64,000 nucleotides of DNA. Origin: Ignavibacteria bacterium RIFOXYC2_FULL_35_21 (GTDB lineage Bacteria; Bacteroidota; Ignavibacteria; Kapaibacteriales; UBA2268). The DNA is taken from the NCBI GenBank assembly GCA_001804705.1, contig MHAY01000001.1:1-64000 (forward strand). Reading direction: 5' to 3'. Positions 15,135 through 49,658 of the stretch are shown here, piece by piece (the first letter of the stretch is position 1; the number at the start of each line of letters is the position of its first letter). The notes under the pieces were generated by a model. That model did no database searches. It saw only the letters and a list, made by a program, of their open reading frames with translations, and had not been told where the DNA came from. Made by a program: the position numbers and the translations under genes.

Positions 15135-18100
15135 TTAATTCCCTTCTACAATTCTTATCTCCTCCTCCGTCAAATCATAAAGCTTATATACAATCTCATC
15201 TATTTGCTTATCTAATCCATCTATAATTTTCTTGTATATTTTCTTATCATCTTCAGTTCTGGAACTATAAAAATATTCCTGATTCTCAAGCATTTGTTCT
15301 ACGAGCTGAACAAGCTTGTCGTGTTTTTGCTTTTCAGATTTATTATTGAAATCAATAGAAGGTATTGGAAATTTTTTTGCATTTTGAATTAAAATTTTTT
15401 GAAATAGATTTTTTGATTGATCAAGAAATTTATTAAGATGATAAAAATTCATAAGTTTTGAATTAATAATACTTAAAATAAATTTCAGGTTAATATCCGG
15501 ACTTAAATTTTGTTTTAGTACAAGGTTAAAAATAGTTTGGGTATTATACAATTCTTCTTCTGAGTACCCAGCATATATACTTGGTGGATTACCACTTATT
15601 ATTTGTCTAATTAATATTCTTGGTTGTGTAAAAAATCTTTTTTCTCTTGGTGCACCTAACCATGGACCATAACTAATATATTCATCTCCATTCCATGATA
15701 CAAAATATTTTTTTACATCACTACCAGCTAATAATGTTTTAAATGTTTTATCTTTTTTTGTTGATGCATGGAAAACTCTTTCAATTATTTGTTTTTCAGA
15801 ATGTCCTTTGTATTTATCATAAGGAGTAATTCCCAAAGTGAAATCACATAAATTTAAAAGTTCATTTTTGCTTTTCTCAATTTTCTTTATTATCTCTATG
15901 GTTTGATTGTCTGAGAAAATATCAAAAACAAAAAAATCATTATTAATCCATTGATCTTGATTAATAATTTTATTATCATCGCAGTTTTTAGTTGAAATAT
16001 TAGAGATGTTTGATTTTCTATCATAAATAATGCAATCAATCAAACTATCATTATTTCCTATTGTTATAATAACAGATTCAGCTTTCACACCTACAAAAGT
16101 ATTATCAGGCAATCTTACAATATTTGCAATATTCTTATTATCTAAAATAAATTTTCTTAAATTTTTGTAAGAACTTTGATATAAAATTGAATTAGGTATT
16201 ATTATACCTAATTTCCCTTTTTCATTTAATACTCTTAAACCTTTTTCAAGAAAAATTGCATACAAATTTATTCTATTTTCAGTTGAATCATATTTCTTGA
16301 AATAATATCTTGTAAGTTCAGGTGGATGTCCTTTTAAATCTACCCAAGGTGGATTCCCAATCACAACATCAAAACCACCCGATTTCATTATATACTGAAA
16401 ACCATCTTTGCTGTCCCAATCAAAAACCTGAATTTTTGTTTTTTCTTTTTCATTGAATAATGATGGTTTGTTTTCAACATAAAAATCACTTCCAATCAAT
16501 GAATTTCCCCATTTAATATTATTATCTAAGTTTGGTAATGTAGGAAATTTAAATAAATCATAGTCCTCAATTACTTCATCGTGTGTTGAATCCTCTAATG
16601 CTTTCATTGATAGACTGAATTTTGTTACCATCACAGCCTGCGGGTCAAGGTCAACACCAAAAATGTTATTGGTCAGGATTTCACTTTTCAATTTATGGGA
16701 CAGATGGATTGTGTAATAGTCTTTTTTTTCACCAATCACTCTAACTTTATTTTTGTTCTTATTTGTGAATTGATTTATGTTATCCTTCTTTGTGAATTTC
16801 ATTAATTGGTCGAAATACCATTTTTTGTACCAGTCAATTAATTTCTGATAAGCTACAATCAAAAAGCTTCCTGAACCGCAGGCAGGGTCAAGCACTTTTA
16901 TTTTGGCAACATCATCAGGTGTTTTGCACTCCTCTAATTTCTTTCCGAGAGTGTTATCAACTATATACTCGACAATGTACCTTGGCGTATAATAAACTCC
17001 GCTTGCTTTTTTCTCATCATACTTAGGTACAAGCGCAATTCCTGCACCTTTCTTGATTATTTGTTCGGCTATGAAAAGTTCATAAACACTTCCGATAATT
17101 TCAACAGGCATTGCCGCAAGTGTATAAATGGAGTTTTCAGGTTTTAGCTCTTCAAAGATATTTATTAAAACGTTGTTCGATATTTCAATATCATCTGAAT
17201 CTTTATCAAAATCAAATACACTTCCATTATAAACATGGTCAAGTCTTTTAAAAATATCTTTACATAATTCATATAGCTTTACTTCTGTTTTTTTTGATTT
17301 TGAAAGATTAGATAAAATATTTGTAAGATGGTCAGGTTCTATCACTCTGTCGCTAAGCATTTTTACAAATATTATCCTGTTGATAAAAAGCAGAGTAGCT
17401 TTAGTAAGCTGGAAATCGCTAAGCGATTTATCATTTTTAAACATACTCTTTGCAATGTCTTTTCTCCACCTTTTTAAATCGTCTAAGAACTTCTTATCAG
17501 GAGTAATTCTGTTTCCAGCTATCTGCTTTTCGGTTAAATACCATTTATCTAATGAACCGTTAACGACATTATTATATTCGAGGAAATCCCAAACCTCATC
17601 GAATTTATTAATGTAATCTTTGTAAGTCCAGTCCTTAACAATATGTTTATTGTATGCTTCAAACCTGTCTTCATATTTTTTTTCTAAAGGTGTCGGGTCT
17701 AAGCAATCGAACATTCGGAATTCTTCAAAATCAGTAAGTACAGCGAGCCTTACTCTGTTATTCGGATTCTCCGAAGCATTTAATGTAGAGTAAGCATATT
17801 TATAAACTTGTTTAATATATCTGGCATTTGTTTTTAAATCATATTTTGCTTGTTTTGCTTCAATAAAAAAACAACTTTTCATTTGATTAGTATTTTTATC
17901 AGGTATTCTTACATGATAGTCAGGTTTTTTATTAGTTTCGTCCTTTGTTTTTAAAGTCATTTGTTTTTTAAAAACTTCTCTTCCGGGTTCTAATTCTTCA
18001 TTTGATACATCCCAGTTTAAATATTTAAAAAATAGTTCTATCAGATAACTCTCGGTATCTGCTTCACTATAATTACTTTTATATTCAATAATACCTGATT

Positions 18101-18161
18101 CAAATTTTTGCACTAATTTTGAAATCTTGTTTTTAGATTCAGATTTTGAATATATTTCCAT
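15135..18161 (-). CDS. Type IIG (Eco57I-like) restriction-modification enzyme, single polypeptide
   Basis: N-terminal PD-(D/E)xK-like PDYHVRI...FFIEAKQ; SAM motif VLDPACGSGSFLIVAYQKL; catalytic VVIGNPPWVDLKGH; 1008 aa. Confidence 0.88.
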   Translation of the reverse strand: MEIYSKSESKNKISKLVQKFESGIIEYKSNYSEADTESYLIELFFKYLNWDVSNEELEPGREVFKKQMTLKTKDETNKKPDYHVRIPDKNTNQMKSCFFIEAKQAKYDLKTNARYIKQVYKYAYSTLNASENPNNRVRLAVLTDFEEFRMFDCLDPTPLEKKYEDRFEAYNKHIVKDWTYKDYINKFDEVWDFLEYNNVVNGSLDKWYLTEKQIAGNRITPDKKFLDDLKRWRKDIAKSMFKNDKSLSDFQLTKATLLFINRIIFVKMLSDRVIEPDHLTNILSNLSKSKKTEVKLYELCKDIFKRLDHVYNGSVFDFDKDSDDIEISNNVLINIFEELKPENSIYTLAAMPVEIIGSVYELFIAEQIIKKGAGIALVPKYDEKKASGVYYTPRYIVEYIVDNTLGKKLEECKTPDDVAKIKVLDPACGSGSFLIVAYQKLIDWYKKWYFDQLMKFTKKDNINQFTNKNKNKVRVIGEKKDYYTIHLSHKLKSEILTNNIFGVDLDPQAVMVTKFSLSMKALEDSTHDEVIEDYDLFKFPTLPNLDNNIKWGNSLIGSDFYVENKPSLFNEKEKTKIQVFDWDSKDGFQYIMKSGGFDVVIGNPPWVDLKGHPPELTRYYFKKYDSTENRINLYAIFLEKGLRVLNEKGKLGIIIPNSILYQSSYKNLRKFILDNKNIANIVRLPDNTFVGVKAESVIITIGNNDSLIDCIIYDRKSNISNISTKNCDDNKIINQDQWINNDFFVFDIFSDNQTIEIIKKIEKSKNELLNLCDFTLGITPYDKYKGHSEKQIIERVFHASTKKDKTFKTLLAGSDVKKYFVSWNGDEYISYGPWLGAPREKRFFTQPRILIRQIISGNPPSIYAGYSEEELYNTQTIFNLVLKQNLSPDINLKFILSIINSKLMNFYHLNKFLDQSKNLFQKILIQNAKKFPIPSIDFNNKSEKQKHDKLVQLVEQMLENQEYFYSSRTEDDKKIYKKIIDGLDKQIDEIVYKLYDLTEEEIRIVEGN

Positions 18162-35866: not shown

Positions 35867-37366
35867 TTATTCAAAACCTGACGAAATACTATCTTCAGGA
35901 ATAGTTCTCATGCGTGTGCCTGCCGGTTTGGCATTGGATACGGAAAAAACCATTTCGCTTATGTAAGCAAAAGCATCTACCTGGTCATCGTGTGTCCCGT
36001 TTGGGAATTGCTCCAGCTCATCCTCGAAATCCATGAGCCAGGGTGCATTTTCCCTGAAATAAACAATATGGCTTTCGAGCTTTGTTGCCATTGGCAATGC
36101 TCTCGTAACTTTTTTCCCTTTTGGTTTTAATGCAACAATCGGAAATCCTTTCCTCAAAAGCATCTGCACAAGCATTATCTGGTACTGGGTGCTTTCGATA
36201 CCGAGTGATAAAGGATTCCACCTGTTGAAAATCTGCTCTACGAGTGCGGGATGGTCGGCGCCTGAAAATCTTTCGCGGATGATGTCATATATAAGCACTT
36301 CATTATCCTGAGTTACTTTGAATATAATTGCGGCAGTGAAATCGGCTGTTTCCTTGTCGCTGACTGCAAGGTCAATCGTTGAGTATGTTCTGCAATTGCT
36401 CTCACTGCAAAGTTTTTGCTCACCCTCACTTTTTTTCAGAATGCAGGTTGTTCCGTCAGTTGTAAAATACCTGAAATTTGTTTTTTTGAAAATGCCGCTA
36501 CCTTCCGGCGATGGAGACTGCTGATACAGAGCCGAGAACCAGTAAGACCCGATTGAATTTTTTATTGACTCCAGCTTTTTGAGAGGGAATCTCTTTTCCC
36601 AGAGTGCTTCGCCGGGGTTTCTGCCGAGCATGTCGTTTTCTTCTGCAATCGCAGGGAGGTTCAGTATAGTCCAGTCGTCGAACTCGGCATTGGGCTTGAA
36701 CTTTTCTGCCTCTGCCTGGCTGATAAGCCTGCCGCACAAATCATCCTGGTGCCAGCGTGTCATGATGACAACTATAATGCCATTCGGCTCGAGCCTTGTC
36801 AGTGCAGTTGATGTGAACCAGTCCCAGATGTTATCGCGTATGGTTTTTGAGTGGGCTTCTTCGTCATTTTTGATTGGGTCGTCAATGATTAGCAGGTCTG
36901 CACCTTTTCCTGTGATGGGCCCTCCCGCACCGACAGTGTTCATATTCCCTTCTGCATTGATGAACGGATAAACGGGCGACAGCTCGAAAGCGGCGGCTGA
37001 AGCGACATCGGGATTGATTTTTATTCCGAAATAATCTTCTCCGAATTCTGTAATGAGGGATTTTACCTTGCGTCCCCAGCTTACAGCAAAGCTCGCACTG
37101 TAAGATACGAGGATTACCCTGTGATTAGGGTTTCTACCGAGATACCATGCAGGGAAATATTTTGAAATCAACTCGGATTTACCATGCCTCGGCGGCATGT
37201 TCACAATCAATTTGTTTATTTTTCTTTGAGAGAGAGCCATCAGTTGTTTGTCAATCGCTTTGATATGTGCGGGATATGTCCATTTGCCGCGTGAACTGTG
37301 GTGTGCAAACCAGCCGGGTGATAAAATCCTGAAGCTGTCGAGAAATTCTAATTCTTTCTTATCCAT
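35867..37366 (-). CDS. Phage terminase large subunit
   Basis: Walker A MPPRHGKSELISK; Walker B DLLIIDDPIKNDEEA; MTRWHQDDLCGRLI; nuclease region TYSTIDLAVSDKETADFTA. Confidence 0.92.
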   Translation of the reverse strand: MDKKELEFLDSFRILSPGWFAHHSSRGKWTYPAHIKAIDKQLMALSQRKINKLIVNMPPRHGKSELISKYFPAWYLGRNPNHRVILVSYSASFAVSWGRKVKSLITEFGEDYFGIKINPDVASAAAFELSPVYPFINAEGNMNTVGAGGPITGKGADLLIIDDPIKNDEEAHSKTIRDNIWDWFTSTALTRLEPNGIIVVIMTRWHQDDLCGRLISQAEAEKFKPNAEFDDWTILNLPAIAEENDMLGRNPGEALWEKRFPLKKLESIKNSIGSYWFSALYQQSPSPEGSGIFKKTNFRYFTTDGTTCILKKSEGEQKLCSESNCRTYSTIDLAVSDKETADFTAAIIFKVTQDNEVLIYDIIRERFSGADHPALVEQIFNRWNPLSLGIESTQYQIMLVQMLLRKGFPIVALKPKGKKVTRALPMATKLESHIVYFRENAPWLMDFEDELEQFPNGTHDDQVDAFAYISEMVFSVSNAKPAGTRMRTIPEDSISSGFE

Positions 37367-37889: not shown

Positions 37890-39770
37890 TTATGGAACAA
37901 CAACCCATTTATTCTCTTTTTTCTCTTGAAAAAGTTTTTTATCTTTTTTAAAAATACCAAAATTTTTATGACAATTCGAACATTGAGCTAAGTTGGGTTT
38001 CGATTTAAATAGAATGGTGTCGGATTTTAATCTATCCTTATGGCATTTTATACATAGTGAATGCATTGCATCGGTATAAGACAGAGTTTTGTAGGTTGAT
38101 AGTTTCTTTATTCTGGAGTCAGCCGGAATGATATTATTATGGCAGTCTTTACAAATTCGAGTTGCTTTTTTATTGGAGAATTTGAAATTCATTCCCTTAC
38201 TGACAGATTTGTTATGGCATTTGAAGCAGTCAAGATTAGCTCCGCTGGAAGAAGAATGCCAATCATGCCGGAAAGCATCCCCTGTCAAATACATATCATC
38301 ATGACATTCGTAACATCCGGTAGCTTTATCATCGGGTTTATTTATATGGTGACAGTAGCCGCAGGTAACACCGAGCTTTTGATGATTGGCATGAGCGAAA
38401 ACAACATTATATCCATCCCTGTTACCATCAATTAACAGGGTATCTGCTCCGCGTGCTTTTGTAACAGGTGATTTCTCGAAACCACTGCTGTGAATCTCCC
38501 CGCCTGAAATAAGAGCAAAAGTTAAACCGAATGCTATAATAAAAGCAAAAGAGAATTTTGTTCTGTTCACTATCGGATTAGAACCCAAATATACTTTGAA
38601 GGAATCGAATCTTGGCGTTCTATTAACATTACTTTGAACAATTGGAAATTCTTCCCACACTTTGAAATTCTCAACAAAAAAGAAGAAAATAAGCATTGCT
38701 GCAGACACCACTCCAGCCGAAATGGAAAATTCCATCAATGATGGAAAATAAAAGGAACCAATTTCAGTTAAATTATTAAGATGAGTTATTCCTCCTACAT
38801 TGAGCCTGTTAAATACGACTCCAACAACACCTATAAAAGCCCCAAAATAAAGGATAGAAATTTTTATTTTTTTAATTGGTAAAGAAAATATAATTAATGG
38901 GATAATGCATGATAGCAGAATCTCAATCCAGAACAGGGACATTCCCCAACTAAAACTAAAAAGGAATGAACCAGCACCACGAATAATAATATCAGCAAAT
39001 CTTACCAATAAATATAAGAACAGCATATATGAAGCATATTTCTTGATTTTTTCGAGGATATGTATTTCCTGCTCCCTCCTGTATAAGTAGCTTGAAGTCA
39101 TGCTTTCCACCATTACCATCATAAATCCAAGGCATATTGCAGATAGAAAGAAAATTATTGGTATTATTGGTGAATACCATAATGGGTGAAGCCTGTAAGG
39201 CATTGCCAGGAACAGGCTGCCAAGCGAGGATTGATGTAATGTTGACAGCATTATTCCAAGAATTACGAGGGGAATTCTGATTTTAAAAAGAAATCCGTGT
39301 ATGATTGACAGCAATTTTATGTTCGGATATTTTTCAAGAACAACAGGAGTAAATTCAAGGGTTAGAACCGTAAGATAAAGCATGACGCACCAGCCAACCT
39401 CAAATAATGGTGAGTGAGGATTCCAATAAATTATCATGTGCCAGATGTTCCAGGGTAATCCCAAATCGAACAGTAAACCAACAGCAACTGCAACATATCC
39501 GAGAAATGCAGTCAGAATAGCAGCTCTTGCAATCGGATGTAATACTTTTTTCCCGAAAATATAATTAAAAGCAGCAATGACAAAGCCCCCTCCTGCAAGC
39601 GCTACTCCTCCCATAACATCAAAGCCAATCCAAAAACCCCAAGGAGTGTTATCTGTCAAATTAGTAGTAGCGCCAAGGCCAAAAATAAAACGTGTTATTG
39701 CTACTGCACCCGCAATTCCGAGTATTGCCCAAAGAATTAATTTCGCTTTATTTATCCTGTCCATTATCAT
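37890..39770 (-). CDS. NrfD/HmcC-like membrane subunit fused to C-terminal hexaheme c-type cytochrome
   Basis: N-terminal multi-TM NrfD features (GFWIGFDVMGGVALAGGGFVIAA); C-terminal CGYCH, CYECH, CFKCH, CKDCH, CIKCH, CSNCH. Confidence 0.85.
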   Translation of the reverse strand: MIMDRINKAKLILWAILGIAGAVAITRFIFGLGATTNLTDNTPWGFWIGFDVMGGVALAGGGFVIAAFNYIFGKKVLHPIARAAILTAFLGYVAVAVGLLFDLGLPWNIWHMIIYWNPHSPLFEVGWCVMLYLTVLTLEFTPVVLEKYPNIKLLSIIHGFLFKIRIPLVILGIMLSTLHQSSLGSLFLAMPYRLHPLWYSPIIPIIFFLSAICLGFMMVMVESMTSSYLYRREQEIHILEKIKKYASYMLFLYLLVRFADIIIRGAGSFLFSFSWGMSLFWIEILLSCIIPLIIFSLPIKKIKISILYFGAFIGVVGVVFNRLNVGGITHLNNLTEIGSFYFPSLMEFSISAGVVSAAMLIFFFFVENFKVWEEFPIVQSNVNRTPRFDSFKVYLGSNPIVNRTKFSFAFIIAFGLTFALISGGEIHSSGFEKSPVTKARGADTLLIDGNRDGYNVVFAHANHQKLGVTCGYCHHINKPDDKATGCYECHDDMYLTGDAFRHDWHSSSSGANLDCFKCHNKSVSKGMNFKFSNKKATRICKDCHNNIIPADSRIKKLSTYKTLSYTDAMHSLCIKCHKDRLKSDTILFKSKPNLAQCSNCHKNFGIFKKDKKLFQEKKENKWVVVP

Positions 39771-40578
39771 CCTCTTGTTTTTGATTTTCAGATTGAATCT
39801 CGCTTTGCAATTTATTCCTTCGATTTATAACCCAGTAAATTCCGCTCATAACTGCCCCCATGCCGAGGAAGGCAAATGGAACCGCACCCATAGCCCATTT
39901 TGTTGTGATTGGAATTGCTTCATTAAAATCAGGCATTCCTGCAAGTTCTATTCCTTTTTCAATTCTATTATTGTAGTAAAGCAGAAAATCCAATGGGCAG
40001 TCTTTGGCTGTGATGTATAGAACATTTGTGCCGCCAACTTCATTTTCTCCATAGATAGTATTCAAATATTTATCCGGTTCAGAATTGATTCTTCGTCTTG
40101 CTTCCTTCAGAAGTTCCTCTCTTTCTCCGTAGATAGTAGCACCCGTTGGGCAGGCAGAAGTACAGGCCGGCTGGCTGATTGTACCATCTTTTATTTTGTG
40201 ATAACATAATATGCACTTTTTTATGTAAGGAACCGGCTGAACCCAATCATACCTTGGTATGCCATAAGGGCAAGCCATCATACAATAGCGGCATCCAAGA
40301 CATTTATCACTGTCGTAAACGACAGCACCTGTTTCAGTCTTATGCAATGCACCTACCGGGCATACTGAAACACAGGCAGGTTCAACACAGTGGCGACACT
40401 GCTTCCTTAAATTATACTTGCCATTGTGTAGCACAGATGTCCAGTTGCTTGCCGATAAACCATCATTTTTCTGCCATTCTCTTGGTTTGTCGGGCGGCAG
40501 ATTATTGATTACCTTACACGCCTTAACACATTCGTTGCAACCTATACATTTGGTTATATCAGTTAGAATGGCTTTCAT
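39748..40578 (-). CDS. DmsB/HmcB-type 4x[4Fe-4S] ferredoxin with C-terminal TM helix, no Tat signal
   Basis: CIGCNECVKAC, CRHCVEPACVSVCP, CLGCRYCMMACPYG, CILC...CTSACP; FLGMGAVMSGIYWVINRR. Confidence 0.88.
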   Translation of the reverse strand: MKAILTDITKCIGCNECVKACKVINNLPPDKPREWQKNDGLSASNWTSVLHNGKYNLRKQCRHCVEPACVSVCPVGALHKTETGAVVYDSDKCLGCRYCMMACPYGIPRYDWVQPVPYIKKCILCYHKIKDGTISQPACTSACPTGATIYGEREELLKEARRRINSEPDKYLNTIYGENEVGGTNVLYITAKDCPLDFLLYYNNRIEKGIELAGMPDFNEAIPITTKWAMGAVPFAFLGMGAVMSGIYWVINRRNKLQSEIQSENQKQEDDNGQDK

Positions 40579-41282
40579 AATGCTTCACCTTCTTTCCCTA
40601 AATCAATCATAACATTTTCTCCTGCCTCCGGAGGGAACTTCCACGCTCTGGCAGTAATCCACTGGCTCAATGGCAATAGAATGCAATGAGCTATCTTAGT
40701 GAATGGCATAAGAATAAAAATCAGACAACCACTAAGAATGTGTATCAAAATAAAAGCATTATAAACATCCGGATTTACGGTCAGTTGAGCACAAACCAAT
40801 CCGCTGATGAATGGAATGAGCAACAACAGGGGCCATAGATAATCCTGCTTCCTGCTGATAAATCTCGAGGTCTTGCTGCTAATTCTTATTAAAAAGAGTA
40901 ATATTCCTGTTGCAATTGTTATTATTGTCATCCAGTCAGCAAATTGTTTCGATAATGTTAAATTAAGCCAGCTAATACCAATCGAATTTTGAAATAGCAG
41001 TGCGTGGTCAAAAAGAAATATTGGAGTGAATATCAACCCAATATGAAATAATATAGAAACAAACGCATAAAATGGTTTCACCCGAAATGCTCTGACAGGA
41101 AATAAAAAGCCAAAAGTCATTTTTCTTACATATCCTTTGGGAATAGATTTGTCCTGAGCTTTCTTCTTTGCTTCAAACCCGTTAATTAATGATAAACCAA
41201 ATACCCTTAGAAGCCCTAAAATCATAATAGCAAATGAAAATCTAAAAAGAGGGCCCTTCGCAAAATTTAATAATTCTTCCAT
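40575..41282 (-). CDS. NarI/DsrM/HmcE-like membrane subunit (probable b-type cytochrome)
   Basis: Multi-TM with spaced His; FAFVSILFHIGLIFTPIFLFDHALL; 4-nt overlap with the ferredoxin gene. Confidence 0.7.
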   Translation of the reverse strand: MEELLNFAKGPLFRFSFAIMILGLLRVFGLSLINGFEAKKKAQDKSIPKGYVRKMTFGFLFPVRAFRVKPFYAFVSILFHIGLIFTPIFLFDHALLFQNSIGISWLNLTLSKQFADWMTIITIATGILLFLIRISSKTSRFISRKQDYLWPLLLLIPFISGLVCAQLTVNPDVYNAFILIHILSGCLIFILMPFTKIAHCILLPLSQWITARAWKFPPEAGENVMIDLGKEGEAL

Positions 41283-41321
41283 ATCATACTCTTAAATTAA
41301 AGGACAGAACAATATCTGTCC

Positions 41322-41690
41322 CTACATTCCGAAAATATTTTGAGGCATATAAGGATGCGTACCTTCAATAACCTCAATCCCTGACTTTGCTTTAATTTTA
41401 TTTATTATTATGTCCTTGTAAGGACAATGGTCAATAACACAAGGAGCCACATGAATTTTTGTAGGCTTCTCGTTCAAATGTTTATTCCACAAGCTGAATT
41501 GTGCAAGACGGGTAACAACTATCGCCCCGGGACAATCGCCGCAGTTAAGCAGCCCGATTAGCTCGACATCTTTTTCTTTGTATTGTGCGAATTCACCTTC
41601 CCGCCGATTGAATCCGACAAGGCAGCGGGAACAAGCAATGCAGGCATCGTTCATTGCTTTTTTGCATCCGAAAATCAGGAGCTTTTCCAT
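41322..41690 (-). CDS. CGGC-domain-like cysteine-rich protein
   Basis: CIACSRCLVGFNRREGEFAQY...LIGLLNCGDCPGAIV...HVAPCVIDHCPYKD. Confidence 0.7.
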   Translation of the reverse strand: MEKLLIFGCKKAMNDACIACSRCLVGFNRREGEFAQYKEKDVELIGLLNCGDCPGAIVVTRLAQFSLWNKHLNEKPTKIHVAPCVIDHCPYKDIIINKIKAKSGIEVIEGTHPYMPQNIFGM

Positions 41691-41691
41691 A

Positions 41692-42231
41692 TTATTCCTT
41701 TATTGTAAATTTCCAAATACAATAATTATTATTATCTGTTATTTCCGGTGGGCAGGAAAGACATTCAGTTTCGATTCTTCCGTCAATTGTTTTTGCAAAC
41801 AGGCTGTATTCAACAATGCCGACCGACTTACAGGGAAAATCCTTTAATCCCTTTCTGCGTCTTGCCTCCTGTACGCGGCAAGTCTCAACATAATAAATCA
41901 TACTCTTATTATCGAGAATCTCGATTTTGTCTTTATTAATTGTGGAATACAAGCGAAACCTCAATGCCCGTGCTAATCCTTCAATACCGGAGTTCTTACC
42001 GAGAGATAAAAATTCATTAATACGCTTTGCTTCTACAATGGTGAATTTACGCCATGATTCCCTGTCAATGTTTATTGCTTCATCAATACCATGCTTTTCC
42101 TCGACAGATAAAAACCAGCAACCGTCATGAGCAAGCCAGTTCTTTGCATAGATTTTCAAAAGTTCAAGGAGTTCTTCTTTTGATAAATCATCTATGCTGT
42201 TTGCTTTTGATATTTTATTAGAATCTTCCAT
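41692..42231 (-). CDS. DUF6125-like protein
   Basis: YAKNWLAHDGCWFLSVEEKHGIDEAINIDRESWRKFTIVEAKRI...CRVQEARRRKGLKDFPCKSVGIVEY. Confidence 0.7.
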   Translation of the reverse strand: MEDSNKISKANSIDDLSKEELLELLKIYAKNWLAHDGCWFLSVEEKHGIDEAINIDRESWRKFTIVEAKRINEFLSLGKNSGIEGLARALRFRLYSTINKDKIEILDNKSMIYYVETCRVQEARRRKGLKDFPCKSVGIVEYSLFAKTIDGRIETECLSCPPEITDNNNYCIWKFTIKE

Positions 42232-42700
42232 CGGATTTCATTTCATTTAATTTATTAATATTTTCAGTTAACCAACCGATTTTATACTCATTGTCATAAT
42301 TTTCACATCCGGGAACATAAGGCTTAATATCCAACAATGGAGTTCCATTCACTATATCAACATTTTCAATAATGACGTTGTTATCTTTAACTTCGATTAA
42401 TCTGACGACCGATAGTCCAATCGGATTAGGCCTTGCCGGAGCTCTTGTCGAAAACACTCCTCTTTCAACTTTATCTACGAAGGGTATAACATGAAGAGAG
42501 AATGTTTTTATTAAATGTAGATGATAAATTAAAGTAATATGTGAAAATCCATCCAAATCTTTTAAACCTTCAATAAATTCGTCAAAAATTACAATACGTC
42601 CCCTGATACCGATAGCTGCGGAGGGCTGAATCGGTACCCCCGTCGTTTCCTCAAAAGGTGAATATATAGTTCCAATAGGTTTAAATATTATATCCATCAT
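42218..42700 (-). CDS. TsaA/TrmO-family tRNA methyltransferase-like protein
   Basis: PIGTIYSPFEETTGVPIQPS...FSTRAPARPNPIGLSVVRLIEV...LLDIKPYVPGCEN. Confidence 0.88.
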   Translation of the reverse strand: MMDIIFKPIGTIYSPFEETTGVPIQPSAAIGIRGRIVIFDEFIEGLKDLDGFSHITLIYHLHLIKTFSLHVIPFVDKVERGVFSTRAPARPNPIGLSVVRLIEVKDNNVIIENVDIVNGTPLLDIKPYVPGCENYDNEYKIGWLTENINKLNEMKSDGRF

Positions 42701-44073
42701 TTTTCGATAATAATTGCTTTTAATATTAAATCGTGTAATCCGACAAGTTCTCCGTCAACTTTATTATCTTCCATCGTTTCCCGAATCTGCTTTTTGCAAT
42801 TTGCACAGGGTGCTATTACATAATGGGCTCCTGTTCTCCTGATTTGCCCGGCTTTTTTGGCACCTGATACTAAAGTCCTGTACTTTCTAATTTCATCAAT
42901 CGAAACAGTTCCGCCGCCGCCCCCACAGCAATAATTCTCAGTTCTGTTCGGTGTCATTTCGACAAAGTCCTTACAAAAGGCTTTAATTATTTCTCTCGGT
43001 TGCTCTACAATCCATCCCTGGCGGGCAATATTGCATGGGTCATGGTATGTAACCCGCTCAGTAACTTTATTAGGGTCGAGTTTAATTCTGCCTTCTTTAA
43101 GTAATTCATTTGTCAATTCCATTATATTAATTATTTCGGGACAATCACCACCCTGCCAGAAAGTCTTTAGAAATGTAGCACTGCGGCTGGCGTGGCCGCA
43201 CTCACCTATTAAAACTTTCTTAGCTTTCAATCTTTGAGTTTCTTCCTGTATCTTTCTTAATACCCTTCCCAAAACAAGGTCGCTATAAAACAATCCATAA
43301 TTAATAGCATCGAAATATTTTGTACCTATCGTCCAGCTTACTCCGGCAGCATGAAGAACAGCAGCAATACCCATCAATGTATCTGCCTCCATTAAAAAAT
43401 CCGATACAGGAGCAAAGAATATATACTCCGCATTTTCGACATCCAGGGGAAATTTAATATCAACATCCAGCATTTCTTTCAGCTCTTCCTCCAGGAATTC
43501 AATCGAATCCTTCAAAGCAACAAGTGGTATTCCGGAAGTGTTAGCTGTTGCACCTTGCAATTGTTCCCTTGTTGATACTACTAATGCTCTCGGAACAAGA
43601 TTCATTTCTGCCATAATATACCTGGCAAGATGGGTCATCATTCCATGGTCTATGCCGGACGGACATTCAAGAACACACTTACGACAAGCCGTACAGTTCC
43701 AGAAAGAATGTGCCATTTTATCAATGTGTTCCTCTGTAAGTTCAAATCCGCCAAACAGCCGCGCAAACATACTGCTTTCATATGAAAAGTATCGTCTGTA
43801 AACGCTGAGCAACAATTCAGAACGGTAGCAGGGTATATCTCTCAAATCTTTTGTGGTTTGGTAAACATGGCAGCTACTGGCGCATCTTGAGCATTTGGCC
43901 GATACCCGAATGTAATGTTCCAGCGCAGTACGGTAATTGCTATATTCTAATAATGATGCAAAGATATCAAGGAACTGAGAAACTCTGTCCCCTTGGGGAG
44001 GTTTCTCGATAATATATTTCATATCGGGTATTTCTTTGGGTGGGTTATTTTTTGTTATATTATCTTTAAACAT
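42697..44073 (-). CDS. HdrD/DsrK/HmcF-like Fe-S protein
   Basis: CTACRKCVLECPSGIDHG; YHDPCNIARQG, NYCCGGGGGTVSIDE, APCANCKKQI (CCG domain). Confidence 0.88.
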   Translation of the reverse strand: MFKDNITKNNPPKEIPDMKYIIEKPPQGDRVSQFLDIFASLLEYSNYRTALEHYIRVSAKCSRCASSCHVYQTTKDLRDIPCYRSELLLSVYRRYFSYESSMFARLFGGFELTEEHIDKMAHSFWNCTACRKCVLECPSGIDHGMMTHLARYIMAEMNLVPRALVVSTREQLQGATANTSGIPLVALKDSIEFLEEELKEMLDVDIKFPLDVENAEYIFFAPVSDFLMEADTLMGIAAVLHAAGVSWTIGTKYFDAINYGLFYSDLVLGRVLRKIQEETQRLKAKKVLIGECGHASRSATFLKTFWQGGDCPEIINIMELTNELLKEGRIKLDPNKVTERVTYHDPCNIARQGWIVEQPREIIKAFCKDFVEMTPNRTENYCCGGGGGTVSIDEIRKYRTLVSGAKKAGQIRRTGAHYVIAPCANCKKQIRETMEDNKVDGELVGLHDLILKAIIIEK

Positions 44074-44092
44074 AATTTACCTTGTCGTTTTA

Positions 44093-44482
44093 TTATTTAA
44101 TTTTTAATATTTTTCTAACGCTTGCCAACAAATTTTCTCTGTCAATCGGCTTTTCAAAAAAATCAAATTTATATTTAGAACCCTTTTTATTTGGAATAAC
44201 ACTTTTGAATTCTTCTGAGACACCGGTAATAATTATTACCGGTATTTTACTTGTTTTGAGATTTTCCTGTAAATCTCTAAATACTCTGACACCTGATTCC
44301 ATTGGCATAGAAATATCGAGGGTTATTAAATCGGGATTTTCTGATTCAGCTTTGATAATACAATCCTTACCGTTAGTGGCTGTTATAACATCAAAACCAT
44401 TATCAATAAAGAAAGTTTCAAGGTATCTCAAAACATCTACCTCATCGTCCACGACTAAAATCCTTTTTCTAACAGAATTCAT
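44093..44482 (-). CDS. CheY-like single-domain response regulator
   Basis: RILVVDDEVDVLRYLETFF...LITLDISMPMESG...IPVIIITG...KPIDRENLL. Confidence 0.9.
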   Translation of the reverse strand: MNSVRKRILVVDDEVDVLRYLETFFIDNGFDVITATNGKDCIIKAESENPDLITLDISMPMESGVRVFRDLQENLKTSKIPVIIITGVSEEFKSVIPNKKGSKYKFDFFEKPIDRENLLASVRKILKIK

Positions 44483-44843: not shown

Positions 44844-46655
44844 TTGTTGGAAGAGTTACAGGAAATAATAGCTGAACAATTATATGATTTGTTGCCTTTT
44901 AACGTAGATATCATAGATAAAGACTTAAATATTGTTCAGGCCAATAACAACTTTAGAGATTACTTCGGTGACTGGGAAGGAAAAAAATGCTATGAAGTAT
45001 ATAAAAAAACCTCTGAACAGTGTACTCATTGCAAGATAAATGAGGTATTTGAACAAGGATTGACAAAGGTTTCTAACGAGTCAGGAATAGATAAAAATAA
45101 TAAAATTTGCCACTATATCGTGCATCTTGCACCATTAAAAAATAAATCGGGTAAAGTAAAATATGTTGTCGAAATGTCAACTGATGTAACAGAGACAACA
45201 AGGTTCCAAAGGGAGTATAATATTTTCTTTGAAAACGTCCCAAGTTATTTATCCATTATTGATACAAATTATAGAATCATACGGGCGAACAAAAAACTGA
45301 GGGACACATTTGGAGAAGTACAAGGTAAGCACTGTTATGAAGTATATAAAAAAAGGGGCAGGAGGTGCCGGAGGTGTCCGGCAGCACTTACTTTCAAGGA
45401 CGGACTCGACCATTTTTCGTCGGAAATAGGCACTACTTTTTCAGGAGAAGAAACAAGATATTTTGTTAACACTTCAGCACTATCAAAGAATGAAAAAGGC
45501 GTACAACTTGTACTTGAAATAGCAAATGATATTACAGAAATCACCGAGCTTCAGGATTCATTAAGAAAATCCCATGATTTTTACGCAACGTTAATTGAAA
45601 ATTCCGATGATGGGATAATCGCAACAAATGAGAGAAATAAAACTGTTATTATGAACTCATCTGCTAAGAATATTTTAAGCTGGCAATCAAATAAAAAACC
45701 TGTCTATAATTCCCTAAAAAGTATTTTTCCGAAGGAATTTTTCGGAAAGCCAAATAAAAAAGGCATTATTACAAAGAAGGAAGAAGCCACAATCATTGAT
45801 TCAAACGGTAAAGATATTCCCGTAAGATTTAATGCTTTGGAATTAAGAAGTAAAAAAGATATTCTCGGCAGAGTAGCCTTTTTTCAGGATTTGAGAAGAA
45901 TAAAGGTACTGGAAAAAGAGAGAATGGAAGCTGAAAGATTAGGTACCGTAGGCCAAACGGTTGCAGGCCTTGCCCACACCATAAAAAATGTATTAATGGG
46001 ACTCGAAGGAGGAATGTATATCGTTGATACAGGCTTGAGGCAAGGCGAAGCCTCCCGAATTGTCGAAGGCTGGGAAATTCTCCAGAGAAATTTTAATAAA
46101 ACAACGGATTTGGTTAAAGGATTTTTAAGTTTTGCTAAGGGCAGGCTTCCTGAACTTGTTCCTGCTGACCCAAATAAAATTGTAAAGGACATTACGGAAT
46201 TATACTATGAAACAGCAAGGACTCAAAATGTCGAATTAACTTCCGAACTTGGTAAAAGCGTTTATAATTTTCCATTGGACCCCGATGGTATCGAATCATG
46301 CCTGACAAACCTTGTCTCTAATGCTATTGATGCTGCAATGATGAGAGAAGACAAAAAGGGCCAAGTCATAATCAGAACTAAATTCAAACATGCAACTCTT
46401 GTTTTTGAAGTAAGCGATAATGGCTGGGGAATGGATTCGGAAGTAATACAAAAAATATTTACTACATTCTTTACTACTAAAGGGAATAAAGGTACCGGAT
46501 TGGGTTTGTTAACTGTAAATAAAATTGTGAAAGAACATGGCGGAACTCTCGAGGTTGATTCTATACCTGATAGAGGTTCGACTTTCAGGATGATATTTCC
46601 ATTGAAAAGGCTTGAAACGATTGCAAAAGAATCTAAGAAAAATAAATTAAACTAA
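44844..46655 (+). CDS. PAS-domain sensor histidine kinase with two Cys-cluster PAS domains
   Basis: KCYEVYKKTSEQCTHCKI and HCYEVYKKRGRRCRRCPA; AGLAHTIKNVLMGLEGG H-box; ATPase NLVSNAIDAA, DNGWGMD, GNKGTGLGLLTV. Confidence 0.9.
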   Translation: MLEELQEIIAEQLYDLLPFNVDIIDKDLNIVQANNNFRDYFGDWEGKKCYEVYKKTSEQCTHCKINEVFEQGLTKVSNESGIDKNNKICHYIVHLAPLKNKSGKVKYVVEMSTDVTETTRFQREYNIFFENVPSYLSIIDTNYRIIRANKKLRDTFGEVQGKHCYEVYKKRGRRCRRCPAALTFKDGLDHFSSEIGTTFSGEETRYFVNTSALSKNEKGVQLVLEIANDITEITELQDSLRKSHDFYATLIENSDDGIIATNERNKTVIMNSSAKNILSWQSNKKPVYNSLKSIFPKEFFGKPNKKGIITKKEEATIIDSNGKDIPVRFNALELRSKKDILGRVAFFQDLRRIKVLEKERMEAERLGTVGQTVAGLAHTIKNVLMGLEGGMYIVDTGLRQGEASRIVEGWEILQRNFNKTTDLVKGFLSFAKGRLPELVPADPNKIVKDITELYYETARTQNVELTSELGKSVYNFPLDPDGIESCLTNLVSNAIDAAMMREDKKGQVIIRTKFKHATLVFEVSDNGWGMDSEVIQKIFTTFFTTKGNKGTGLGLLTVNKIVKEHGGTLEVDSIPDRGSTFRMIFPLKRLETIAKESKKNKLN

Positions 46656-46664
46656 AGGTATTCT

Positions 46665-47183
46665 ATGAAAAATATGAATAAGACTGTTCTCGTTGTCGAT
46701 GATGAAGCTGATGTGAGAAATTATCTTAAATCTGCCCTCAGTAATTATGGTTTCGAAGTTATACTCGCTTCTGATGGATTAGAGGCATCGGATGTTATAA
46801 AAAATCAGATTCCTGATTTGATATCGCTTGACCTTGTAATGCCGAAACATTCGGGAATAAAATTTTATCGGGATTTGCAAAAGAACAAACAGTGGTCGAA
46901 AATTCCAGTTCTTATAGTTACAGGGCATGCAAGGGATGAACTTGGTAAGGTGGATTTCGAAACAATGATGATGCAGGGACCGGGTGTTTATCTTGAAAAA
47001 CCGGTTAAGCCCGAAAATTATATCGAAAAAGTATGTCTTATGCTCAACCTTGTTATTCCCCAGGAAATCATCGAAAAGAAAAAAGATGACGAAACAGATT
47101 ATAGAAAGAAGATGCTCGAATCCCTATCAAAAGCCGATACAGATTCATTAAAGAAAGCATTTGAAGCAATGCAAAAGAAATAA
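46665..47183 (+). CDS. CheY-like response regulator
   Basis: KTVLVVDDEADVRNYLKSAL...LISLDLVMPKHSG...IPVLIVTGH...EKPVKPENY. Confidence 0.9.
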   Translation: MKNMNKTVLVVDDEADVRNYLKSALSNYGFEVILASDGLEASDVIKNQIPDLISLDLVMPKHSGIKFYRDLQKNKQWSKIPVLIVTGHARDELGKVDFETMMMQGPGVYLEKPVKPENYIEKVCLMLNLVIPQEIIEKKKDDETDYRKKMLESLSKADTDSLKKAFEAMQKK

Positions 47184-48696: not shown

Positions 48697-49221
48697 TCAA
48701 TGAAGTTTTTCTGTATGATTCACAATATTTTGTTCAATCACCGCTTTAACAGCTTTTTCAATTAACTGAATATATGTAACAATTGGCTCAATACCTGCAT
48801 TATGCAAATGATCGTATATGCCATAACCCATGCCTCTTGCAAGCAGGTATTTACAATCCAAAATATTACCAATCATAGTATTATGTTTGTCTTCCGAGTG
48901 ATGGTCCCAGCCATGTCCCATTCCTGAACCGAATCCAATTCCTGCACCTTGTCCCATTCCGAAACTCTGGCCTTTTTGCATAATCATGTCAGTATCGGAT
49001 TCTAAGGGTATGGATTTAATACCACCGTGCTGATGTTGGTGTAAATGCTGATTATAAGGATGACCTGCTGCATGGAAATTAACTTTTTCCCTTCTTTCGT
49101 GTTTGATAACAGCATTGTTTTCTATGGTGAAAACTTCATAGAATCTTGCCGAGCCATAGTGCTGGCTTACAGATGTGCCATTGTTAGAAACAACTGCGAT
49201 TTTATAACTATCCGTATCCAT
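48697..49221 (-). CDS. Dinitrogenase iron-molybdenum cofactor biosynthesis (NifX/NifB-like) protein with His/Gly-rich insert
   Basis: KIAVVSNNGTSVSQHYGSARFYEVFTIENNAV; HLHQHQHGG and GMGQGAGIGFGSGMGHGWDHH insert; DCKYLLARGMGYGIYDHLHNAGIEPIVT. Confidence 0.82.
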   Translation of the reverse strand: MDTDSYKIAVVSNNGTSVSQHYGSARFYEVFTIENNAVIKHERREKVNFHAAGHPYNQHLHQHQHGGIKSIPLESDTDMIMQKGQSFGMGQGAGIGFGSGMGHGWDHHSEDKHNTMIGNILDCKYLLARGMGYGIYDHLHNAGIEPIVTYIQLIEKAVKAVIEQNIVNHTEKLH

Positions 49222-49232
49222 TGTAAAACTCC

Positions 49233-49658
49233 TTAAATTACTTTAATTCCCTCTTCTTGAGGATTAATATCTATTCTTGCCAATTTTGGACAATTTTTAC
49301 ATTTATCCCTTCTACTTGAAATAAAATTTCTACTTGTGATTTTATTTTTTTGTTCATTTAATATGAAATCGGAGCAGAAATCACCACCTTCAATTACAAG
49401 AGCTTTACCATTTATTAATGCATCCGCCACAATATATCTCGCTTTTTCGACAATCCTTCCAAATGTAGCTCTTGAAATACCCATTTGCATTGCTGCATCC
49501 TCATGAAACATAGCTTCTAAATCTGCCAGTCTTAATGATTCAAGTTCATCGTGACTGATTATATTTTTTTCTAAATTTCTCATCATAATTCCGCTCGGCT
49601 TGAAAAAAGTCGAAGCCGGAAATCGTTCTACAAATCTACATTTTCTTGGTCTTGACAT
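49233..49658 (-). CDS. DUF134 family DNA-binding protein
   Basis: MSRPRKCRFVERFP...LESLRLADLEAMFHEDAAMQMGISRATFGRIVEKARYIVADALINGKALVIEGG. Confidence 0.9.
   Translation of the reverse strand: MSRPRKCRFVERFPASTFFKPSGIMMRNLEKNIISHDELESLRLADLEAMFHEDAAMQMGISRATFGRIVEKARYIVADALINGKALVIEGGDFCSDFILNEQKNKITSRNFISSRRDKCKNCPKLARIDINPQEEGIKVI

Follow-up and report, generated by a model that had tools for sequence, protein, structure and literature searches.

An Hmc/Tmc/DsrMK-related operon with an NrfD-hexahaem fusion and three inserted accessory genes in a bacterium of the Bacteroidota family UBA2268

An operon of eight genes in Ignavibacteria bacterium RIFOXYC2_FULL_35_21 (GenBank assembly GCA_001804705.1) raises the questions of which transmembrane redox complex it encodes and of why three small genes, coding TrmO-like, DUF6125 and CGGC-domain proteins, stand between the genes for its subunits. 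The DNA analysed, hereafter the window, comprises positions 1 to 64,000 of contig MHAY01000001.1. The operon is real and well preserved, and its core is, by sequence, a relative of Hmc, Tmc and DsrMK that is not claimed by their curated models. Four genes make up the core; they code a DsrK-like HdrD protein, a di-haem cytochrome b, an Fe-S protein with four [4Fe-4S] clusters and an NrfD that bears a bis-His hexahaem domain in the same chain. The variant is defined by the NrfD-hexahaem fusion, the DsrK-like HdrD and an Fe-S subunit without a twin-arginine translocation (Tat) signal. A first-pass annotation had described an uncharacterised variant of an Hmc/Dsr-like transmembrane redox operon, with the three small genes as its hallmark. 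The type of complex stands, as does its lack of assignment to any curated Hmc, Tmc or Dsr model and its presence in a genome with sulfur genes, but the hallmark does not.

The core subunits and their relatives

Cofactor residues were assessed on 16 members of the family. In HdrD the cysteines of two [4Fe-4S] sites (C61, C64, C68, C82 and C127, C130, C133, C137) and of the CCG-type site (Table 1) are invariant, which is the pattern of the HdrD/DsrK superfamily. The NarI-like cytochrome b keeps four histidines, accounting for two b haems, and the Fe-S subunit keeps 16 cysteines for four clusters. The NrfD domain belongs to its superfamily by score (PF03916, 61.6 bits, cut-off 25.8) and by its ten predicted transmembrane (TM) helices; an eleventh helix leads to a haem domain with six CXXCH motifs and more than six further conserved histidines, enough for six bis-His haems. 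This eleventh helix would put the haem domain outside, in the periplasm, and the biology of c-type haems likewise implies a periplasmic haem side. No description of an NrfD-hexahaem fusion was found in the available portions of the literature on these complexes; the fusion is recognisable in metagenomes.

No subunit reaches the curated cut-off of HmcB, HmcC, HmcE, HmcF, TmcB, TmcC or DsrK. The scores, in bits over the cut-off, are 215/420 for HmcB, 284/550 for HmcC, 106/275 for HmcE, 217/750 for HmcF, 223/735 for TmcB and 109/240 for TmcC. The best model for HdrD is DsrK, with 292 bits and a cut-off of 400. In the HdrD tree the family forms one clade of 17 rows (support 100/100) that is nearest to DsrK and clearly apart from the proteins labelled HmcF and TmcB by NCBIfam. 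The sister relation with DsrK is provisional because long branches meet in the tree. Membership in Hmc, Tmc or DsrMKJOP was rejected on scores, tree and missing subunits.

All eight open reading frames (ORFs) are present on the minus strand of the window between 37890 and 44482, and they and their four overlaps agree exactly with the first-pass annotation, whose gene names are matched by hidden Markov models (HMMs) for a response regulator, CCG/HdrD, TrmO, DUF6125, CGGC, NarI-like, HmcB-like Fe-S, and NrfD with a class III cytochrome. The overlaps are of four bases and ATGA type at 42697-42700 and 40575-40578, of 14 bases at 42218-42231 and of 23 bases at 39748-39770. The operon is not a chance arrangement, because its full order recurs in three other genomes and the ratio of nonsynonymous to synonymous substitution rates (dN/dS) is 0.03-0.2 where dS is unsaturated. 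The operon is presumably transcribed as one unit; scans for promoters and terminators gave values near shuffled expectation. The locus should extend to the divergent histidine kinase and the second response regulator, because both travel with the core elsewhere. The first response regulator, previously listed as an extra gene, is real but not a lone addition, since a conserved two-component set travels with the core.

Directly downstream of the operon is a gene for a phage-type terminase large subunit (Terminase_6N/6C, 35867-37366). The window also codes a putAbiC-like putative phage abortive infection protein (PF16872, 33940-34833) and an Eco57I-type restriction-modification methylase with a TaqI-like specificity domain (15135-18161).

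Table 1. Genes of the operon and associated genes in the window.
Feature	Position	Strand	Remarks
NrfD (10 TM) + extra TM helix + periplasmic hexahaem c domain, single chain	37890..39770	-	Six CXXCH
HmcB/HybA-like 4x[4Fe-4S] subunit	39748..40578	-	C-terminal membrane tail; no Tat signal
NarI/HmcE/TmcC-like cytochrome b	40575..41282	-	Five TM helices; four invariant His (two b haems)
CGGC-domain protein, accessory gene	41322..41690	-	PF08821; eight invariant Cys
DUF6125 protein, accessory gene	41692..42231	-	254 bits (HMM); invariant Cys 118, 134, 160, 171
TrmO-like protein, N-terminal domain only, AF_0241 type; accessory gene	42218..42700	-	TIGR00104 match
HdrD/DsrK-like cytoplasmic Fe-S subunit	42697..44073	-	Two N-terminal [4Fe-4S] sites + C347-X34-CC-X38-CXXC
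CheY/DivK-like single-domain response regulator	44093..44482	-	Best NCBIfam match DVU0259/DivK, below its cut-off
PAS histidine kinase, divergent to operon	44844..46655	+	Travels with core
Second single-domain response regulator, after kinase	46665..47183	+	
NifX-like (PF02579) + DUF134 pair	48697..49658	-	Loosely linked

Distribution of the core and of the accessory genes

The full order (response regulator, HdrD, TrmO, DUF6125, CGGC, NarI, Fe-S, NrfD::c6) is also found in G051 and G053, from the same genus, and in G009, from another genus of the same family. With the window genome these are the only four genomes, in two genera, that combine the core with the TrmO-DUF6125-CGGC trio. Among the nearest named relatives, operons of the same order belong to the Bacteroidetes metagenome-assembled genomes (MAGs) FW215_bin.12, WY4.bin46 and clean1621, after which the next relative is ChocPot_Mid (G327), by its name presumably the Chocolate Pots MAG of the Thermonerobacter study. 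The core of G327 lacks the trio (HdrD identity 71%), as do the two copies in the LCP-89 genome G330 (65% and 52%) and the cores of ten genomes of the class (about 58-62%). The gene order put forward at first thus recurs, but the three small genes do not define the variant. That the trio generally has a conserved part in the complex was rejected, because outside the two genera the core is found without it.

G052 (91% complete), a fourth member of the genus, has no close HdrD, TrmO or DUF6125, and 395 sampled genomes of the phylum yielded no further one with a close HdrD. CGGC loci led to 40 genomes, of which 28 contain a homologue of NrfD (E up to 1e-30). Identity above 50% over the full fused length is confined to G327 and G330; nearly all other homologues, mostly from Desulfobacterota, show 32-42% over the NrfD part only, and the complex is absent from the other 38 genomes searched, again mostly Desulfobacterota. 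Very large open frames with NrfD (about 1,090 residues) in L177 and L196 (genomes G358 and G338) are possibly other NrfD fusions.

About a dozen further Bacteroidota genomes, as well as LCP-89, have the core in company with a histidine kinase and single-domain response regulators. Kinase and regulators accompany it in loci L161, L162, L141 and L146, and response-regulator homologues lie beside it in L022-L024, L161 and L146. A dsrA-like gene is found near the core in 8 of the 11 loci of the class (seven genomes); that of L147 is confirmed by HMM (585 bits) and those of the other class loci share its sequence start. No Pfam or NCBIfam model matches the 82-residue ORF that follows dsrB, and it is not called DsrD. 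Note that in G179 (L142:9920-11218) the Fe-S ORF reads 432 residues and no separate narI ORF is called, possibly from a frameshift, an insertion or an artefact of ORF picking.

Where dS is measurable, dN/dS is 0.03 for CGGC, 0.07-0.10 for DUF6125 and 0.17-0.20 for TrmO; all three genes are therefore maintained by purifying selection. Between the two genera no protein of the operon is better conserved than CGGC (89%, with HdrD at 81% and NrfD at 68%). TrmO scores 126.8 bits against TIGR00104 (cut-off 93.25) and CGGC 89.6 bits against PF08821 (cut-off 27). No paper that mentions CGGC or DUF6125 by name came up in a literature search, and the trio ties these uncharacterised families to an electron-transfer operon where they become testable.

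Homologues of CGGC occur in over 60 loci, mostly from Desulfobacterota and mostly at 63-78% identity. At least one neighbour from the set NBP35/Mrp, MinD-ferredoxin ATPase, NifU_N, NifX-like (PF02579), zinc ribbon and DUF5320 is present in 31 of 67 CGGC loci, the neighbour clusters having been identified by Pfam on examples. The NifX and DUF134 genes lie beside the complex in L161 (G327) and L022 (G009), whereas in the window some 4 kb separate them from it, and in G327 TrmO adjoins a DGC-domain protein and a TsuA/YeeE-like transporter. Because of the NifX, Mrp/NBP35 and NifU-like neighbours elsewhere and of its cysteines, CGGC is suggested to act in metal or Fe-S cofactor handling. Elsewhere in the family DUF6125 is often encoded between an ORF of about 1,090 residues, which looks like a B12-dependent mutase, and one of 535 residues, which looks like an acyl-CoA carboxylase; its AlphaFold model, built with four close sequences only, has a confidence score (pLDDT) of 38.7, too low for the model to be used. 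A sulfur or metal cofactor role would be the best guess for the trio.

It is possible, though less likely than not, that the trio is a passenger whose members have separate tasks (tRNA modification, metal handling) and share the transcript at a spot that tolerates insertions. Besides the many cores without the trio, this is supported by the insertions that the operon takes: a TonB-dependent receptor gene, absent in the window, lies between hdrD and trmO, at the same junction, in G051 and G053 (L024:5371-7674, L023:5396-7744), and a second insertion point, between narI and the Fe-S gene, holds a four-helix-bundle (TIGR02436) gene in G174 and G184 (L143:7729-8136, L148:7018-7434). The TrmO gene is also the sole copy in the window genome, as for a housekeeping gene. 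However, the order is kept with overlapping frames across two genera and 58-95% protein identity, CGGC is the slowest-evolving member of the operon between genera, and the complex, TrmO and DUF6125 are jointly absent in G052.

A proposed role in sulfur respiration

The window genome (4.15 Mb, 97.75% complete) has sulfur genes elsewhere, for which the first-pass annotation had proposed a test. It carries dsrA and a second, dsrB-like match, three DsrC-domain matches, aprA and a DsrMKJOP locus (L035) whose DsrK scores 727 bits and which includes a triheme DsrJ and a Tat-bearing DsrO. Because of these genes the organism is a probable dissimilatory sulfate reducer. Sulfate-reducing Bacteroidota of the family UBA2268 (Kapabacteria) have been described (PMC10591310), and the window genome would be placed in this group. 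Two further HdrD-NarI modules (L164 and L165, on C34 and C58) each have a kinase and a single-domain regulator; L164 codes DsrC, a NarI/DsrM-like and a DsrK-like protein, and its kinase and regulator are of the same family as those of the operon. One of the two modules adjoins DsrC and a GltD-like NAD(P)-binding protein. An unusual 236-residue protein with two tandem DsrC domains (L166:4883-5590, on C18) is encoded next to hyp-type maturation genes and an ORF resembling a [NiFe] hydrogenase large subunit.

With moderate confidence, the operon is read as coding a transmembrane oxidoreductase, specific to its lineage, that belongs to the Hmc/Tmc/DsrMK superfamily and works in dissimilatory sulfur respiration; on this reading the trio was inserted into the operon and CGGC serves cofactor supply. 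Its assembly as an Hmc/Tmc/Dsr-type complex and its activity with DsrC or cytochromes are predictions. The NrfD part, with a quinol site, and the periplasmic hexahaem would exchange electrons with menaquinol, periplasmic cytochromes or both. The di-haem cytochrome b would pass them through the membrane to the DsrK-like subunit on the cytoplasmic side; the CCG-type cluster of this subunit may reduce (or oxidise) a disulfide or trisulfide, most likely that of DsrC, and the complex would be switched by its own two-component system. In one lineage TrmO-DUF6125-CGGC, between hdrD and narI, would share the operon; CGGC with its invariant cysteines may supply a metal or Fe-S cofactor, with TrmO and DUF6125 as partners. 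We infer the electron-transfer partners, direction of flow and maturation role from sequence. The link to DsrC is drawn because HdrD is nearest to DsrK, the core lies near dsrA-like genes in relatives, the window genome has dsr and apr genes and its parallel cluster L164 codes DsrC alongside a DsrK-like protein. Tmc has been proposed to feed DsrC (PMC4215793).

Several points weigh against this reading. Since DsrMKJOP and two more HdrD-NarI modules are already encoded in the window genome, an extra DsrC route needs another reason. The sister grouping of HdrD and DsrK is weak (89/62). The cofactor role of CGGC is drawn from neighbours and cysteines, and its Rossmann-like model (pLDDT 80.7) has no convincing fold match: Foldseek gave no hit below E 0.001, and the VIA Z values, at most 7.3, lie in the range of unrelated rows.

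A flow in the outward direction, in which low-potential electrons of the cytoplasm would reach periplasmic or external acceptors by way of the periplasmic hexahaem, or a function in redox sensing, is unlikely. An NrfD subunit is also part of Hmc, for which a transfer of electrons from ferredoxin to periplasmic c3 has been proposed (PMC4215793), and the hexahaem faces the periplasm by the logic of the sequence; yet HdrD is nearest to DsrK, not HmcF, and the loci of relatives adjoin dsrA-type genes. The complex is a distinctive candidate, besides DsrMKJOP, for electron supply to the sulfite/DsrC step in LCP-89 and in sulfate reducers of the Bacteroidota type, which have been little studied.

For NrfD/HmcB pairs, the lack of a Tat signal raises a clear question of topology. 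None of the 16 Fe-S subunits of the family has a Tat motif, nor could one fit into even their longest possible ORFs; the motif is also absent from the unfused HmcB/NrfD pairs of the class (16 examined). Of the Desulfobacterota counterparts whose N-terminus is complete, almost every one has the motif, and it is present in the Fe-S subunits of other complexes in the lineage (L035, L036, L156, L157). The C-terminal tail, with Arg/Lys after the helix, is conserved in the family and its charge pattern suggests an Fe-S domain outside the membrane. The Tat-less N-terminus and the export-type tail point in opposite ways. It is rather improbable that the ferredoxin-like Fe-S subunit is never exported and sits in the cytoplasm with the DsrK-like subunit, NrfD keeping its own periplasmic hexahaem and, in one lineage, a dedicated CGGC/TrmO/DUF6125 module delivering or repairing cofactors.

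Comparison with known complexes

The gene-by-gene comparison covers Hmc, Tmc and DsrMKJOP. Hmc of Desulfovibrio vulgaris (HmcABCDEF) has in common with the operon an HmcB-like Fe-S protein with a membrane tail, NrfD/HmcC, NarI-like HmcE, HdrD-like HmcF, a periplasmic multihaem protein and nearby regulators, such as rrf1/rrf2 in D. vulgaris (PMC10924467). That the operon is a divergent Hmc is nonetheless very unlikely, as its subunits score far below the Hmc cut-offs, the six haems are fused to NrfD in place of a separate 16-haem HmcA, there is no HmcD gene, HdrD lies outside the HmcF clade and nearer DsrK, and the Fe-S subunit lacks the Tat signal.

DsrMKJOP and DsrMK share a DsrK-like HdrD with the CCG motif, a di-haem NarI-like subunit, Fe-S and NrfD subunits and, in relatives, the dsr neighbourhood. 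The operon differs in that its HdrD is in a clade separate from DsrK, its Fe-S subunit is HmcB-like, and neither a triheme DsrJ nor a Tat-bearing DsrO is encoded in it. Tmc (TmcABCD) has a similar TmcC-like cytochrome b and a DVU0259/DivK-like response regulator, whereas the operon has NrfD and a 4x[4Fe-4S] subunit and its HdrD is outside the TmcB clade; Tmc is given no NrfD-like subunit in the account of it in PMC4215793.

HmcB and HybA are Tat-type tail-anchored proteins (PMC10924467). The same source has one similar case without signal, a C-tail Fe-S protein beside an NrfD/HybB-like gene (an Fe-S/quinol-oxidase pair), which probably hitchhikes with a Tat-bearing FeFe hydrogenase encoded alongside; no Tat-bearing partner is encoded in the operon. 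The CGGC proteins of sulfate reducers resemble that of the operon in sequence and in their eight invariant cysteines, but there they are often found near Mrp/NBP35, NifX, NifU-like or MinD genes and not with this complex.

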